In this document: positions 10,427-53,790 of the stretch, one piece after another
Layout: the number at the start of each line of letters is the position of its first letter
Position numbering within the stretch: the first letter of the stretch is position 1
Assembly (NCBI GenBank): GCA_002897775.1
Contig: BDTR01000020.1
Coordinates: 1-64,000 of the forward strand
Source of the DNA: a bacterium BMS3Bbin08
Lineage (GTDB): Bacteria > Nitrospirota > Thermodesulfovibrionia > UBA6902 > BMS3Bbin08
Length of the DNA: 64,000 bases
Reading direction: 5' to 3'
Notes under the pieces: model-generated
Database searches by the model: none
What the model was told of the DNA's origin: nothing
What the model saw: the letters and a program-made list of their open reading frames with translations, nothing else
Translations under genes and position numbers: made by a program

Positions 10427-10446
10427 CCTGCCTGACGGTAGGCAGG
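10427..10446. repeat. Dispersed CCTGCCT palindrome in an intergenic repeat cluster
   Basis: CCTGCCT (10427-10433) and AGGCAGG (10440-10446) flank a 6-base loop. It is a relative of the palindromes inside nrdJ and nuoB. The rest of the 215-base convergent gap (10399-10613) holds other word repeats: AAATCTAAAATCT next to the aspA stop, a GCCCGAAGGGC hairpin, and TCTCTACTCTCTACT at 10563-10579. No gene is seen. Confidence 0.7.
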
Positions 10447-10613
10447 TGGATGCGAGTGAATATGATAATGGTTTGTTAGTCCCTACATTGTGCTTACCCG
10501 CCGGTTTTTGCGGAGGGCTTGCCCGAAGGGCGACCACTAAAGTAAGTTCAATTCCTTTTTTTTCTCTCTACTCTCTACTGACTACCTGCCCCGTTGTCCA
10601 GATTCGTTAGAAT

Positions 10614-22034: not shown

Positions 22035-23381
22035 GTGAAAAAACTACTTTTTGTGATTCCCATTTGTTTGCTTTTTTTCAGCAATATTTCCTGCGCCAAT
22101 TCAGCCGCTGAGATCCGGAATGAAAAAACGGTGTTATTGCGTGAAGAAGTGCTGCCTAACGGGCTTAAGGTGTTTATTCTTAAGGACCGGAGCGCGCCGC
22201 TCGCTGTTTTTCAGATATGGTATCATGCCGGTTCAGCTAACGAACAGATAGGCAAAACAGGACTGAGCCATCTCCTTGAGCATATGATGTTCAAAGGCAC
22301 CCGCAGGTACGGGCCCGCGGAATTTTCAAAGATCATCAAGAGGGCGGGAGGCATTGATAACGCGGGGACGACCAGGGACTACACGTTTTATTACCAGAAA
22401 CTTTCGCCTGACAGGATTCATCTTTCCATAGAACTCGAAGCCGACCGGATGCGGAATCTGGTGATGGACCCTGAAGAGACCCTTTCAGAAAGGGATGTTG
22501 TTATGGAGGAACGAAGGCTGAGATATGAAGATGACCCTCAAAACCTCGTTTATGAAGAGGTCGTATCAGCCGCCTTTAAGAACTCTCCGTACAGGTGGCC
22601 TGTTATCGGCTGGATGCAGGACATAAAAGGGATAACAAGGGACGATCTGTGGAAATACTATAAGGAACGCTATGTGCCCAATAACGCTGTCATAATCGTT
22701 GCCGGCAATATTGATGTGGATTCAGTGCTTGCCATGATAAGGAAGGAGTTCGGCCCTATTCCAAAGGGCCCTGATATCAGGGAACTGAAAATAGGAGAGC
22801 CTGAACAAAGGGGAGAGAGAAGGGTGTTCGTAAAAAAGGAAGCTGAACTCCCGTATGTATTAAGCGCGTACAAGGCTCCGAACGTACTTCAGAAGGACAG
22901 CTATGCCCTTGATGTGCTGGCTGGGGTGCTTTCAGGCGGCAAGAGCGCGAGGATTTACAGGAGTCTGATTGATGAAAAGCAGATCGCGCTTTCCGCTGGC
23001 GCGGGCTACAGCAATTTCCTGAAATATCCTTTTCTTTTTTATCTGTATGGGACCGCAATGCCCGGCAGGTCAATAGATGAAGTTGAAAAGGCTTTATATG
23101 AAGAAGTGGAAAAGATCAAGGAACATGCCCCGACTGAAAGAGAAGTGCAGAAGGCAAAAAACCAGATCGAAACTGATTTTATCATGGGGCAGGATTCCAT
23201 ATTCTTCCAGGCGGAGATGATTGGAATGTTTGAGATGATCGGAGACTGGCGGCTTAAGGATAAATACCTTGAAGGTGTAAGGGAGGTGACGCCCGGGGAC
23301 GTGAGGGATGCCGCGCGCAAATATCTTATAGAAGATAAAAGGACTGTCGGGATTTTAATTCCGCTTAAAAAATCAGAATAA
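22035..23381 (+). CDS. M16 family zinc metallopeptidase (catalytic subunit)
   Basis: A 448-residue secreted or envelope peptidase. A signal peptide (residues 1-21, MKKLLFVIPICLLFFSN) precedes the processing-peptidase fold. The inverted zinc motif HLLEHMMFKGT is present with the downstream glutamate in ERDVVMEERR. The C-terminal half carries the second M16 domain. It likely pairs with the next gene, which lacks the zinc motif, to form a heterodimeric peptidase. The GTG start is 7 bases from a -10 box and lacks a ribosome site. Confidence 0.93.
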   Translation: MKKLLFVIPICLLFFSNISCANSAAEIRNEKTVLLREEVLPNGLKVFILKDRSAPLAVFQIWYHAGSANEQIGKTGLSHLLEHMMFKGTRRYGPAEFSKIIKRAGGIDNAGTTRDYTFYYQKLSPDRIHLSIELEADRMRNLVMDPEETLSERDVVMEERRLRYEDDPQNLVYEEVVSAAFKNSPYRWPVIGWMQDIKGITRDDLWKYYKERYVPNNAVIIVAGNIDVDSVLAMIRKEFGPIPKGPDIRELKIGEPEQRGERRVFVKKEAELPYVLSAYKAPNVLQKDSYALDVLAGVLSGGKSARIYRSLIDEKQIALSAGAGYSNFLKYPFLFYLYGTAMPGRSIDEVEKALYEEVEKIKEHAPTEREVQKAKNQIETDFIMGQDSIFFQAEMIGMFEMIGDWRLKDKYLEGVREVTPGDVRDAARKYLIEDKRTVGILIPLKKSE

Positions 23382-24754
23382 TGTACGATTCACGATTCAC
23401 GATTCACAATTCACGGCAGTTAGTCCGTATCTTTATTTTACTGTGCGCTGTTTACTGTTCTTTGTTCACCAGTGCATACGCGCTTGACGCGAAACGGCAG
23501 GTGCTTGAGAACGGCCTTACCCTTTTGATGGTTGAGAGGCATAATCTTCCGATCGTAAAGGTGACTGTCGGCATCAGGGCGGGAAGCCTTATGGAGCCTG
23601 AGGACAGGGCAGGGCTGGCCGGTTTGACAGCCGCGCTCCTGACCGAGGGCACGAAAAAGAGGAGTGCCGCGCAGATAAGTGAGGAGAGCGAATTTGTCGG
23701 CGCGTCAGTCGGCGCGTCGGGCGGTGATGACTTTATCACGGTCAGCCTTTCTGTTTTAAAAAAGGATGTGTCTCTCGGTTTTGACCTTCTTTCAGATATA
23801 ATCTTAAACCCCGTGTTCCCTGAGAAAGAATTAAATAAAAAGGTAAAACAGATCAAAGGAAGCCTGAAGGCGCGGGAGGACGACCCTGGTTTTGTCGCGT
23901 CAAAGATATTTAAAAGCGAGGTCTTTGGAAAGCATCCGTACGGCAGGTTGACCGCGGGCAGTCCCGAGACCCTTGACAGGATAAAAAGAGATGATGTTGT
24001 TAAGTTCCACTCGGCCCTTTACGTTCCCAATAATTCAATAATGTCTGTTGTCGGCGATATAACGCCGGAAGAAGTAAGCGGCCTGCTTGAGAGATACTTT
24101 TCCGCGTGGCGCGCGAAACCTGTTGAGCTAAGCCCCCCTGAAAAACCCGCGGAGATAAAGAAGAAAAAAACCGTTGTTATAGACAGGGACCTTACCCAGG
24201 CCAACATTATCCTCGGCCATATCGGGATAAGCAGGGACAATCCTGAGTATTATGCTGTATCCGTTATGAACTATATACTGGGAGGCGGCGGTTTTGGATC
24301 AAGGCTTATGCAGAACATCAGGGAGGAAAAGGGGCTTGTCTATGATATACACAGTTCTTTTAGCGCCAACAAATACGGCGGATCTTTCAGGGTCAGTCTT
24401 CAGACGAAAAATGAGTCGGCAAATGTTGCTATAGAAGAGGTCCTGAATGAGATGAAAAAAATAATGAACGGGAAGGTGTCTGATTCAGAGCTTTCAGACG
24501 CAAAGGCGTTTCTCACCGGAAGTTTCCCCATGAGGATAGAAACGAGCGGACGCATCGCGGGTTTCCTGGTCGCTGTGGAGTATTACGGGCTCGGCGTTGA
24601 TTACGTCAATAATTACCCTGGTTACATTAACAGCGTGACAAAAGAAGATGTGCTTGAAGCGGCAAAAAAGTACCTTGACCCTGAGCAGTTCATTCTTGTT
24701 GTTGTTGCCGATAAGGAAAAGGCGTCAATAGTAGAGAACAAAAGTAGAGAGTAG
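23381..24754 (+). CDS. M16 family peptidase-like protein, non-catalytic subunit
   Basis: A 457-residue M16 paralog. Where the catalytic partner has HxxEH, this one reads GLTAALLTEGT, so zinc ligands are missing. The substrate-binding RxxxxxY region is kept (NIREEKGLVYDIHSSF). This is the usual non-catalytic partner of a two-gene M16 peptidase. The ATG overlaps the previous stop by one base (TAATG). The first 13 residues are encoded by ACGATTCACGATTCAC repeats, which sit ahead of the signal peptide (IFILLCAVYCSLFTSAYA). The last residues run into an AGTAGAGAG repeat. Confidence 0.92.
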   Translation: MYDSRFTIHNSRQLVRIFILLCAVYCSLFTSAYALDAKRQVLENGLTLLMVERHNLPIVKVTVGIRAGSLMEPEDRAGLAGLTAALLTEGTKKRSAAQISEESEFVGASVGASGGDDFITVSLSVLKKDVSLGFDLLSDIILNPVFPEKELNKKVKQIKGSLKAREDDPGFVASKIFKSEVFGKHPYGRLTAGSPETLDRIKRDDVVKFHSALYVPNNSIMSVVGDITPEEVSGLLERYFSAWRAKPVELSPPEKPAEIKKKKTVVIDRDLTQANIILGHIGISRDNPEYYAVSVMNYILGGGGFGSRLMQNIREEKGLVYDIHSSFSANKYGGSFRVSLQTKNESANVAIEEVLNEMKKIMNGKVSDSELSDAKAFLTGSFPMRIETSGRIAGFLVAVEYYGLGVDYVNNYPGYINSVTKEDVLEAAKKYLDPEQFILVVVADKEKASIVENKSRE

Positions 24755-25139: not shown

Positions 25140-25172
25140 TTTCTCTCTACTCTCTACTTGCTACCCGCTACT
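25140..25172. repeat. Right AGTAGAGAGTAG-type flank of the IVP gene (inverted)
   Basis: CTACTCTCTACTT at 25147-25159 is the exact reverse complement of the 13-mer at 24742-24754, and CTACTTGCTAC at 25154-25164 complements the adjacent left-side word. Confidence 0.75.
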
Positions 25173-33698: not shown

Positions 33699-35465
33699 TT
33701 AATCAAAGTCATCAAGTTTTTCAAGTGTGCCTCGTTTTGAACCATATCTGAACACTGTTATTCCTTTACATCCCCTGTCATACGCGAGCATAAACGCGTT
33801 GGCCACGTCGTCTCTTGTTGCCCTGTGCCTCAGATTGACTGTTTTTGAAACAGCATTGTCTGTGAATTCCTGGAACGCGGCCTGCATTCCTATATGGTCT
33901 TCAGGCGATATCTCGTATGCCGTCTTCTGCTTGAAAAAAAAAACGCTGGGTATTTCCTTAAAACTTCTGAGGCTTCCTTTTGCTCTTACTTTCTCAATGA
34001 GTGAAGGGCTGTAAAACCCTCTTTTTTTAGCGGTCTCAAGGAAATAAGGATGTATCTCATGAAGTTCTGTGTCAAGGACAAGCCTTTTATAGGCAATGGC
34101 AAAAATGGGTTCAATGCCGCCTGAACAATCGGCAAGTATTGATAATGATCCGGTGGGAGCGATAGTGGTTGTTGTAGCGTTCCTTAAGCCGCCCTTCGCG
34201 GCCATTTCCGGCGTATCATAAACAGAGCCTTTGAAATTCGGGAATGCCCCCCGCTGTTTTGCAAGCTCTGAAGATGCCTCTCTCGCGTTATCTCGTATAA
34301 AACCCATTAATTCGCGCGCGAGATCAAATGCCTTTGAAGAATTATATCTGATGCCGAGTTTAATAAGCATATCAGCCCACCCCATGACCCCGAGCCCGAT
34401 CTTTCTGTTCCCTTTATGCATTTTCTCTATTTCCGGAACCGGATATTTATTTACATCAATAGAATTATCCAGGAACCTGACAGCAAGCGATATAAGGGAT
34501 GTCAGGAGATCCCAATCAATCTCGTATTCTTTTGTCTGTGTTCTGTGCCTGCCTGTCCGGCAGGCAGGTTCTGTGCTCTGTGTTCTGGTTTTCACTGCCC
34601 TGGAAAGATTGATGGAGCCGAGCACGCATGCTTCAAAAGGCAGAAGGGGCTGCTCACCGCATGGGTTTGTGCTCTCGATGTCCCCGAGACGCGGGGTAGG
34701 GTTGTCCCTGTTGATCCTGTCGATAAACACAAGCCCGGGGTCCCCGGTCTCCCACGCGTTTTCAACTATTTCCCTGAAGACATACGAGGCCCGGAGATGA
34801 GTTGTTTCACCCATGCTTCTGGGGTTGATCAGGCTGTATTCTGAGCCTGTTTTTAATGCCTGCATGAACGCGTCTGTTACAGCAACAGAGATGTTGAAGT
34901 TTGCCAGTTCCTCCTCATGCCGCTTTATCCTGACAAATTCAAGGATGTCGGGGTGGTCCACCCTGAGTATTCCCATGTTAGCGCCCCTTCTGGCTCCTCC
35001 CTGTTTAATGACCTCGGTCGCGGTATTGTAGATCCTCATGAACGAGACAGGGCCGCTGGCTATACCGCCTGTTGATTTGACAATATCAGACCTGGGTCTT
35101 AGATGTGAGAAGGAAAAACCGGTGCCCCCTCCGCTTTGAAGTATAAGAGCGGCGTTCTTAAGAGAATCAAAGATGCTTTTCATTGAGTCGTCGACAGGAA
35201 GTACAAAACACGCGGCAAGCTGGCCTATGTCCTTGCCCGCGTTTATCAGGGCAGGGGTGTTCGGAAGAAAAAAAAGATCTGTCAGCGCGTCATAAAATTT
35301 TGTTTCCCACTCTTCAGCGTTTCCACCGTGTAGTGTTTCCGCGGAGGCGATGGTATGTGCTACCCGCTGGAACATTTCCTCAGGGGTCTCCCTGATATCC
35401 CCGTGTTCATCCCTGAGAAGGTAGCGTGCCTTCAGAACCTTGAGGGCATTGTCGCTGAGTTTCAT
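33699..35465 (-). CDS. nrdJ: Adenosylcobalamin-dependent ribonucleotide reductase (class II), with assembly artefact
   Basis: A 588-codon class II reductase. LQSGGGTGFSFSHLRP, GGARRGANMGIL, NPCGEQPLLPFEACVLGSIN and TTTTIAPTGSLSILADCSGG are the family blocks, and GCKGITVFRYGS lies near the end. Two insertions disturb it. Residues VFFFKQKTAYEI are encoded by an Illumina P7 adapter plus poly-A (33910-33943). About 20 residues between NLSRAVKT and YEIDWDLL come from a dispersed palindromic repeat (34540-34568). The usual C-terminal cysteine pair is not seen. No cobalamin riboswitch is visible in the short upstream gap. That gap (35466-35553) is filled by CATGAACTATGAGC repeats. Confidence 0.9.
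   Translation of the reverse strand: MKLSDNALKVLKARYLLRDEHGDIRETPEEMFQRVAHTIASAETLHGGNAEEWETKFYDALTDLFFLPNTPALINAGKDIGQLAACFVLPVDDSMKSIFDSLKNAALILQSGGGTGFSFSHLRPRSDIVKSTGGIASGPVSFMRIYNTATEVIKQGGARRGANMGILRVDHPDILEFVRIKRHEEELANFNISVAVTDAFMQALKTGSEYSLINPRSMGETTHLRASYVFREIVENAWETGDPGLVFIDRINRDNPTPRLGDIESTNPCGEQPLLPFEACVLGSINLSRAVKTRTQSTEPACRTGRHRTQTKEYEIDWDLLTSLISLAVRFLDNSIDVNKYPVPEIEKMHKGNRKIGLGVMGWADMLIKLGIRYNSSKAFDLARELMGFIRDNAREASSELAKQRGAFPNFKGSVYDTPEMAAKGGLRNATTTTIAPTGSLSILADCSGGIEPIFAIAYKRLVLDTELHEIHPYFLETAKKRGFYSPSLIEKVRAKGSLRSFKEIPSVFFFKQKTAYEISPEDHIGMQAAFQEFTDNAVSKTVNLRHRATRDDVANAFMLAYDRGCKGITVFRYGSKRGTLEKLDDFD
33910..33943. other. Illumina P7 adapter sequence with poly-A (assembly artefact)
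   Basis: Positions 33910-33933 read ATCTCGTATGCCGTCTTCTG then CTTG, the P7 adapter end, followed by ten A's (33934-33943). This is what an adapter read-through looks like. It encodes the well-known spurious peptide FFFKQKTAYEI in frame within nrdJ. The native bases around here cannot be trusted. Confidence 0.95.
34540..34568. repeat. Dispersed palindromic repeat inside nrdJ
   Basis: CCTGCCTG (34548-34555) and CAGGCAGG (34561-34568) flank TCCGG. The 25 bases at 34540-34564 are the exact reverse complement of 53253-53277 in nuoB. Both copies read the same way relative to their coding strand, and the unit is free of stops in all six frames. Flanking TTCTGTG/CTGTGTTCTG words extend the insertion. 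Confidence 0.9.
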
Positions 35466-37099: not shown

Positions 37100-37492
37100 A
37101 GTGTTGAGCTGGAAATCAGGACCAGGTTCCCGCGATACCATGGGACAGGCAGGCACTACAGGGCGGATAAACTTGTCGAAGCGACTCTCAGCGAAGTCAT
37201 AGCGATCCTTTGGTCGAGCCTGCATACCTGAGGCATGTAAACCTGCCGGTAGGCAGTTCGACTAAACTCCGACCCGCTTTGGGACTCGCATCGAGAATCT
37301 TAACATTTCAGTCGTTTGTAAATCTCAACTTATTGATTACAAATGAAACTCTTCACCTGGTTATCGAGTTGCGACCTCGATAATTGGTTGTCATTTCAAT
37401 CGCTTGTTAACCGCCTGTTTTTATTGCCATAGCCAGTTCAATTTGGTATAACAAAGAAAACTCTATAATCACTTGTTAGACCAGGATAAGGC
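37100..37492. repeat. Repeat-rich gap before the exonuclease gene
   Basis: No gene is seen in these 393 bases. They hold pieces of dispersed repeats: GGACAGGCAGGCAC (37143-37156) and CCTGCCGGTAGGCAG (37242-37256), both related to the nrdJ/nuoB palindrome, and a perfect hairpin TTATCGAG (37361-37368)/CTCGATAA (37376-37383). Paired CATTTCAGTCGTTTGTAAA and CATTTCAATCGCTTGTTAA words also occur. Confidence 0.55.
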
Positions 37493-52825: not shown

Positions 52826-53197
52826 ATGCCTGGAACCTATGTCCCATCAAATTACTTGCCAATCTTAATAATTATAGTAATAGCGGCGCTGGTCGGTCTC
52901 GGCGCCCTGATCGTGGGCCTTGTCGTGAGGCCGAGGAGGCCTTATGATATAAAACTTTCCCCTTACGAGTCAGGTAACCCGCCTGTAGGAGAGCCAAGAC
53001 ATAAATTCTCTGTCAGGTATTACATTGTCGCGATGCTCTTTGTTGTGTTCGATGTTGAAGCTGTGTTCCTGTATCCATGGGCGGTTGCCTATGACACGAT
53101 TGGGCTATATGGATTCGCGGAGATGATGATATTTATATGCATACTTTTAGTCGGATACATCTATGCATGGGAAAAGGGAGCGCTTGAGTGGGAATAG
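52826..53197 (+). CDS. nuoA: NADH-quinone oxidoreductase subunit A
   Basis: A 123-residue complex I membrane subunit with three helices. [20 protein letters not shown] and [17 protein letters not shown] are the diagnostic NuoA segments. ATG 52826 was selected; starting upstream at 52799 would place the start within the promoter. Its 3' end overlaps nuoB by 10 bases. It heads the operon nuoABCDEFGHIJKL. Confidence 0.94.
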
Positions 53198-53790
53198 ATA
53201 ACCGGAACACCCCGAAAAACTTCGTCTTGGGGCAGGCCGGGACCAGAGCCGGCCTGCCGGACAGGCAGGCACAGAACGCGGACAATCCTTCACTGGTAAA
53301 GGTTGCGGAAGGGATAAAAGTGATCCCCGGAGCGAACACGCTTATCACCACACTGGATAAACTCATCAACTGGGGAAGAAAATCCTCTATCTGGCCGATG
53401 ACCTTTGGTCTTGCCTGCTGTGCTATTGAAATGATGGCGACCGGCTCAAGTGTTTATGATCTTGACCGCTTTGGCATTGTTTTTCGCGCTTCCCCCAGAC
53501 AGTCGGACCTCTTGATCGTGGCCGGCACCGTGACCAAGAAGATGGCCCCTGTTGTGCGCAGGGTATACGACCAGATGAGCGAGCCGAGATATGTGATGGC
53601 AATGGGCAGTTGCGCGTGTTCCGGAGGGATATTCAACACGTATGCCGTTGTCCAGGGATGTGACGAATTCTTACCTGTTGATATATATGTTCCGGGCTGC
53701 CCGCCAAGGCCCGAGGCTTTAATGGAGGGCCTGCTTAAGCTTCAGGATAAGATTCAGAAGGAGCACTTCAGATGGAGCCCGTGGCGGTAA
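53188..53790 (+). CDS. nuoB: NADH-quinone oxidoreductase subunit B
   Basis: A 200-residue peripheral subunit carrying cluster N2. The cysteines are CC in [10 protein letters not shown] (77-78), C in GSCACSGG and C171 in [14 protein letters not shown] 53188 overlaps nuoA by 10 bases. The N-terminal 50 residues are unusual: residues about 15-33 ([18 protein letters not shown]) are encoded by a palindromic dispersed repeat shared with nrdJ. The conserved core begins near [18 protein letters not shown]. Confidence 0.95.
53231..53277. repeat. Palindromic repeat inside nuoB
   Basis: GGCAGGCCGG (53231-53240) pairs perfectly with CCGGCCTGCC (53249-53258); GCCTGCC (53252-53258) can instead pair with GGCAGGC (53264-53270). 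The 25 bases at 53253-53277 are identical to the coding strand of the nrdJ insertion (34564-34540), with a further 6 of 8 matching bases downstream. Confidence 0.9.

Follow-up and report, generated by a model that had tools for sequence, protein, structure and literature searches.

Two core-enzyme genes of BMS3Bbin08, a bacterium of the phylum Nitrospirota, share a 25-base sequence which is very probably part of a dispersed CAGARCA element enclosing a 21-bp palindrome and counting among several families of small repeats which insert into genes or are rewritten within them. The repeats are dispersed through the genome, lie in frame inside genes, add residues relative to homologues, turn over between species and switch their units in concert. 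The sequences we compared were nearly all from MAGs.

Results

A repeat shared by nrdJ and nuoB

Our window was the first 64,000 nucleotides of contig BDTR01000020.1. Its initial annotation had noted 25 identical bases (CCTGCCGGACAGGCAGGCACAGAAC) in nrdJ and nuoB, and we found these at the same coordinates: 34564–34540 on the minus strand in nrdJ and 53253–53277 on the plus strand in nuoB. A check of the sequence confirmed that the 25-mer is read in different frames (11 residues, not shown, in NrdJ versus LPDRQAQN in NuoB) and that it contains no stop codon in any of the six frames. Two 25-mers recur in the real window, whereas shuffled windows held no recurring word of 16 or more bases. Allowing up to 3 mismatches, a 17-mer gave 7 matches in the window (some being both strands of one place) versus 0.11 expected. 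The features concerned are:

33699–35465, minus strand: nrdJ, adenosylcobalamin-dependent ribonucleotide reductase (TIGR02504, E = 4.8e-208; match to the T. maritima NrdJ structure)
34529–34588, minus strand: 60-bp composite in nrdJ, CCAGAACACAGAGCACAGAA + 21-bp palindrome + CACAGAACACAGACAAAAG (sequence; 3 other loci)
34548–34568, minus strand: 21-bp palindrome CCTGCCTGCCGGACAGGCAGG, the core of the finding (sequence, family count, RNA hairpin z = −3.85)
53188–53790, plus strand: nuoB, NADH-quinone oxidoreductase subunit B (NF005012, E = 2.9e-78)
53243–53285, plus strand: degenerate composite in the NuoB N-terminal tail, CCAGAGC..CCTGCCGGACAGGCAGG..CACAGAACGCGGACAA (composite search, 1 mismatch)
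10427–10446, plus strand: intergenic palindrome CCTGCCTGACGGTAGGCAGG (CCTGCC..GGCAGG family search)
37242–37256, plus strand: intergenic short palindrome CCTGCCGGTAGGCAG (sequence)

The exact 17-mer was rejected as a family definition, being too narrow: it has just 3 copies in the 2.71-Mb genome, the third of them intergenic. The genome search for further copies which had been proposed in the initial annotation returned 70 matches to the CCTGCC-N-GGCAGG family versus 2 for the reversed-pattern control. The majority of copies are intergenic; in-frame copies were found in nrdJ, nuoB, larC, dapF, a CheW-like linker and at the cysE|cysS junction, with all three reading frames in use among the genic copies. 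Related palindromes had been listed at 10427, 37143 and 37242; the first and last of these stand, while that at 37143 is only a half copy. A scan of the window against Rfam gave a tRNA as its sole match and no known RNA family for the repeats. At the cysE|cysS junction (L016:1501-1521) the palindrome lies exactly between serine acetyltransferase and cysteinyl-tRNA synthetase in a single 739-aa frame, a possible gene fusion by the palindrome repeat.

The repeat in nrdJ had been described as 25 bp long; these bases are indeed shared, but the repeat extends to a 60-bp composite (34588–34529) with CAGARCA heptamers on both sides of the palindrome and a common 3′ end, CACAGACAAAAG. This composite element, [CAGARCA]n-palindrome-[CACAGAA]n with the palindrome as its core, was found in the same phase at four loci (nrdJ, larC, nuoB and one intergenic locus; 0 for the reversed control), and a related composite is intergenic on contig C49. 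CAGARCA arrays without the palindrome are also dispersed (43 + 41 matches versus 1 + 3 in the control), which suggests that the palindrome is a module set inside another repeat. It sits in the same way, at a constant position, within TTCGACAGG..CTCAGG repeats (L003, L006, L206) and in AGTAGAG arrays (L204, L195); translations of these nesting repeats, VRQAHHPEQSRG and LRQAQDK, recur in DapF and the CheW-like protein.

In nuoB the composite residues precede the conserved domain. The gene start is a GTG at 53188 with AAGGGAG upstream and overlaps the end of nuoA; NuoB in relatives begins at the same place with [VLM]G, and three relatives carry other heptamer-derived peptides at the N-terminus. 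The nuoB copy would lie in translated sequence if the 53188 GTG is used, a downstream GTG start also being possible. A near-identical repeat-derived NuoB N-terminus (SKELRVTSYELGNKDKNTEYSRLRRPAVAGTQNT) was seen in L048 (G002) and L067 (G009), from genomes placed in different families, reflecting either horizontal transfer or a binning error.

Heptamer and octamer repeats in the genome

We surveyed tandem arrays in a 564-kb sample of the 2.7-Mb genome, made up of stretches which were not picked for repeats, with genes called by a simple script of our own. Period 7 was represented by 47 arrays (41 outside and 6 inside predicted genes) and period 8 by 16 (7 outside and 9 inside), while periods 4–6 and 9–13 had at most 7 arrays each. 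Extrapolated from this sample, a genome would hold roughly 70 strict genic arrays. Array load differs within the order: this genome (G000), G008 and G029 are array-rich, and G005 and G017 are array-poor. The units observed include CAGARCA, GTCAGAA, GATTCAC and AGTAGAG; heptamer arrays also form inverted pairs, and five of them have a common 11–12-base end, C(A/C)CAGACAAAAG. Hairpins of CCCCCTTT are a further repeat family found in frame inside genes. The window itself contains three further heptamer arrays:

10560–10585, plus strand: (CTCTCTA) array running into CCTGCC, intergenic
23381–23415, plus strand: (GATTCAC)4 array, at the 5′ end of a gene whose start resembles a signal peptide
25143–25164, plus strand: (CTCTCTA) array, intergenic

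In the approximately ten cases within conserved domains, CAGARCA arrays always had the sense which encodes hydrophilic, RTQNTEH-like peptides. Arrays in the other sense (SVFCVLC-like) were found near N-termini, in signal-peptide-like or hydrophobic segments. This bias in orientation fits selection after insertion, in a small sample. Hydrophobic-sense heptamer arrays form or abut signal-peptide-like N-termini, for example SSLCSVLCVLFLSLEVQA and ALFTFHFSLFTA (L166, L169, L187, L255:4245-4277, L233:7252-7288 and 23381–23415 of the window), and it is possible that such repeats were domesticated as export signals.

Most genic octamer arrays are halves of a single inverted-repeat element of ~78 bp (75–83 bp), (AGAAGATA)n..(CTCAACCT)n, which retains both arms, with little variation in length, at dozens of places. 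Genic copies use the one open frame, giving ..EDKKIRSxEDKxxSTSQPLNFSTS. The element forms an imperfect hairpin with fold z-scores from about 0 to −4, several single copies folding better than shuffles. A consensus RNA structure was discarded, as the multiple alignment gave no pairs, and our model of the element (R1) is therefore a sequence-only model; it was built from genic copies and hence favours these. In this genome R1 matched 57 times, with matches on either strand of a place counted separately, and it matched 20 of the 31 genomes of the neighbourhood. Its distribution across the phylum was uneven, with matches at E ≤ 1e-7 in 12 of 148 sampled genomes.

The nrdJ site in related species

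The nrdJ composite encodes 20 residues at the tip of a beta-hairpin. In an AlphaFold (AF2) model of NrdJ with good overall confidence (85.7), residues 297–310, between two strands, are the only internal segment with pLDDT < 50. Judging by its open frame the repeat is probably translated as part of the enzyme, where an exposed loop would allow it to be tolerated.

We compared the NrdJ loop, delimited by LGSINLS and EIDWD, in 30 orthologues from the order and 75 outgroup NrdJ sequences, the nearest named relatives being Nitrospirota / Thermodesulfovibrionia MAGs. In most of the 30 order members the loop is a tandem array or a palindrome, with units which differ: GTCAGAA, GCGGTCA, GGGCAAG and ACAAGGG plus CTCGTCA, the octamers GGATTCAA and GACCCCTT, and CCCCCTT..AAGGGGG. 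The score for period 7/8 was at least 11 in 18 of the 30, and a codon-shuffle test gave p ≤ 0.008 in 21. As had been anticipated from the window, distant homologues lack these residues: none of the 75 outgroup sequences had a strong array, or scored above 9 for period 7/8. On an nrdJ gene tree built without the loop, with unit labels assigned by eye, we counted at least 22 changes of loop content. Loops differ even within two sister pairs at 93.6–94.2% nucleotide identity. In a trio at about 89% identity, one loop consists of CTCAGAA units, the second of AACGGAA units at equal length, and the third is shorter by exactly 21 nt (three heptamers). With the repeat at a given site changing from one species to the next, we infer that pieces of such enzymes are being rewritten by repetitive DNA.

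It is unlikely that these arrays were simply made in place by replication slippage in permissive loops, with no movement between loci. The loops are permissive, the arrays are tandem and the 21-nt difference fits gain or loss of units. However, an identical two-repeat composite is present at four loci, five arrays have the same C(A/C)CAGACAAAAG end, the octamer element keeps both arms and its length at dozens of places, and all units can switch while the length stays constant. Slippage alone is insufficient because composite and array ends are common to different loci and units switch at constant length.

It should be noted that this nrdJ, in a publicly available MAG, does contain an artefact of assembly. 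The Illumina P7 adapter (CAAGCAGAAGACGGCATACGAGAT) is embedded without mismatch at 33910–33933, or 33910–33943 on the minus strand with the preceding T run, and translates as FFFKQKTAYEI where RLFVTAHEI is conserved. It swaps about ten codons without a change in length and lies 600 bp from the repeat, which is untouched. Misassembly or binning might similarly have pulled repeats into genes, an artefact which the initial annotation had itself raised. This is extremely improbable and has been largely refuted, as same-site repeats occur in dozens of independent assemblies, including the single-contig genomes G020, G032 and G045, and the frames remain open.

carB and other host genes

At the junction between the two synthetase halves of carB, most of 29 order members have an inverted heptamer/octamer array, with a period 7/8 score of at least 11 in 20 species. 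The arms vary by species yet pair within species: a species' own halves had a mean pairing energy of −29.0 kcal/mol, compared with −17.7 kcal/mol with foreign right halves (p = 7e-6, 24 species). Either the hairpin of each species was inserted recently as an inverted repeat, or a hairpin is maintained at this junction as its units turn over.

These observations bear on two further readings. The carB hairpin, and perhaps other sites, may be under selection, for instance for slowing the ribosome at a domain junction, with units drifting in concert. The presence of a hairpin with paired, species-specific arms in most species, sitting between the two synthetase halves, speaks for this, but the junction is short and without an array in three species, nrdJ arrays are often direct with no inverted partner and the other hosts are scattered and mostly unshared, and we regard it as quite unlikely. 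It is very improbable that the inserts are transcribed without being translated, through ribosomal bypassing of hairpins like that in Magnusiomyces mitochondria cited in PMC6649704. While the carB inserts, and often the octamer elements, are hairpins, the nrdJ and carB inserts keep the frame without stops and genic octamer elements use the one open frame. This counts against bypassing because bypassing would not require an open frame. Loop sequences predicted from these frames include AQSTEHR and EDKKIGSWEDK.

Hosts in this genome include truA, mqnE, larC, cbiB, an EtfA-like protein, a P-type ATPase, carB, queC, dapF and purL; those in relatives include aroA, tgt, hemH and others. Compared with solved homologues, CarB has ~37 aa inserted between YSTYE and ECEA, QueC has two insertions and the repeat-encoded residues of dapF and purL are a clean gain; in relatives, AroA and Tgt have repeat insertions of 22 aa and about 20 aa, respectively, against solved structures. 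TruA has a ~70-aa insertion relative to the solved structure which includes a heptamer array, lying between GWQ.QN and TIQ (truA at L172:649-1662). A hemH site and a molybdo-enzyme site each have a repeat common to two species. Apart from the nrdJ and carB sites, hosts were scattered and mostly not common between species.

Discussion

The genic elements described here keep the frame, are free of stops and lie at loops and domain junctions absent from homologues, and the content of one site shifts between close relatives, at times with all array units changing at unchanged length. We suggest that copies derive from a repeat unit located elsewhere in the genome, carried over either by insertion or by conversion between arrays via common cores such as CAGA. 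Selection would then purge copies which break the frame or damage folding, so that conserved domains are left with the hydrophilic sense and its open frame. Such transfer or conversion, between arrays which have a CAGA-like core in common, explains the data most simply. A bolder and doubtful proposal is that heptamer/octamer arrays are written and rewritten genome-wide by an activity dedicated to this task, which might use a template (through ectopic conversion or copying from RNA), such that the units of a fixed site switch together while length, frame and carB arm pairing are kept.

The initial annotation likened the palindrome to Rickettsia palindromic elements (RPEs; Ogata 2000, 2002, reviewed in PMC2229807 and PMC3767692). 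Much of this likeness stands: small hairpin repeats, here in an unrelated lineage, are found both between genes and in frame in conserved genes as a clean gain, the octamer element being the closest. However, the palindrome belongs to a composite as one of its modules, there are further families and the sites turn over. RPEs are palindromes of 105–146 bp, in contrast to the tandem heptamers or octamers and 21-bp palindrome seen here (60 bp for the composite, 75–83 bp for the octamer element). For RPE-1/2/3, orthologues reportedly retain one and the same element at a given locus (PMC3767692), whereas our nrdJ and carB sites hold different repeats per species. Also unlike RPEs, several families use the same sites, and the lineage is Nitrospirota. 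We do not file these repeats as RPEs because the described size, unit structure and behaviour in orthologues differ; they appear to work like RPEs but to be built like heptanucleotide repeats.

The latter include the cyanobacterial STRR, TAACTGA of Beggiatoaceae (PMC4679880) and GGGNATC of Xanthomonas and Nostoc (PMC4692102). Our repeats are STRR-like in being dispersed tandem arrays of 7 bases with three or more copies, mostly intergenic. Described heptanucleotide repeats have few intragenic copies, mostly at protein ends, whereas the arrays found here have many unit types, form inverted pairs and occur within the conserved domains of core enzymes. Compared with the units printed in those two papers, TAACTGA and GGGNATC, ours are different.

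Bacterial MITE, ERIC and Correia-type elements with translated frames (Delihas, PMC2759123; PMC2229807) are likewise short and joined in frame to genes, and some of them translate as signal-peptide-like segments. They have defined terminal repeats, target duplications and a transposase partner; inverted arms were observed here in the octamer element. GTAG/CGTC-tagged REP/RAYT palindromes (PMC3733652) are similarly short, GC-rich and extragenic, in a genome with many Y1 transposases; 17 Y1_Tnp (IS200/RAYT-like) matches were observed in this 2.7-Mb genome (G000, L215-L231). REP/RAYT palindromes flank a Y1 tyrosine transposase, whereas none of the 17 loci here has a CCTGCC..GGCAGG palindrome within about 1.5 kb, and a RAYT-like Y1 transposase was rejected as the mobiliser of the palindrome. 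Hairpins also occur in functional protein genes of Nematomorpha mitochondria (PMC6649704), where the arms are perfect repeats encoding conserved protein regions; here the inserts are in variable loops.

A literature search, thin on subscription journals, returned no report of such gene insertions in Nitrospirota, and the scale of the genic arrays (roughly 70 per genome) and their turnover had no match among the literature found. Loop insertions in Nitrospirota proteins are not in themselves evidence of function, and may mislead alignments and structure work. Comparison of the same sites between species amounts to a natural experiment, which bears on the spread of short repeats in the absence of a visible transposase, on why seven bases are preferred and on how proteins absorb foreign sequence. 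Repetitive DNA would continually supply the core enzymes of an uncultured bacterial lineage with peptide sequence.
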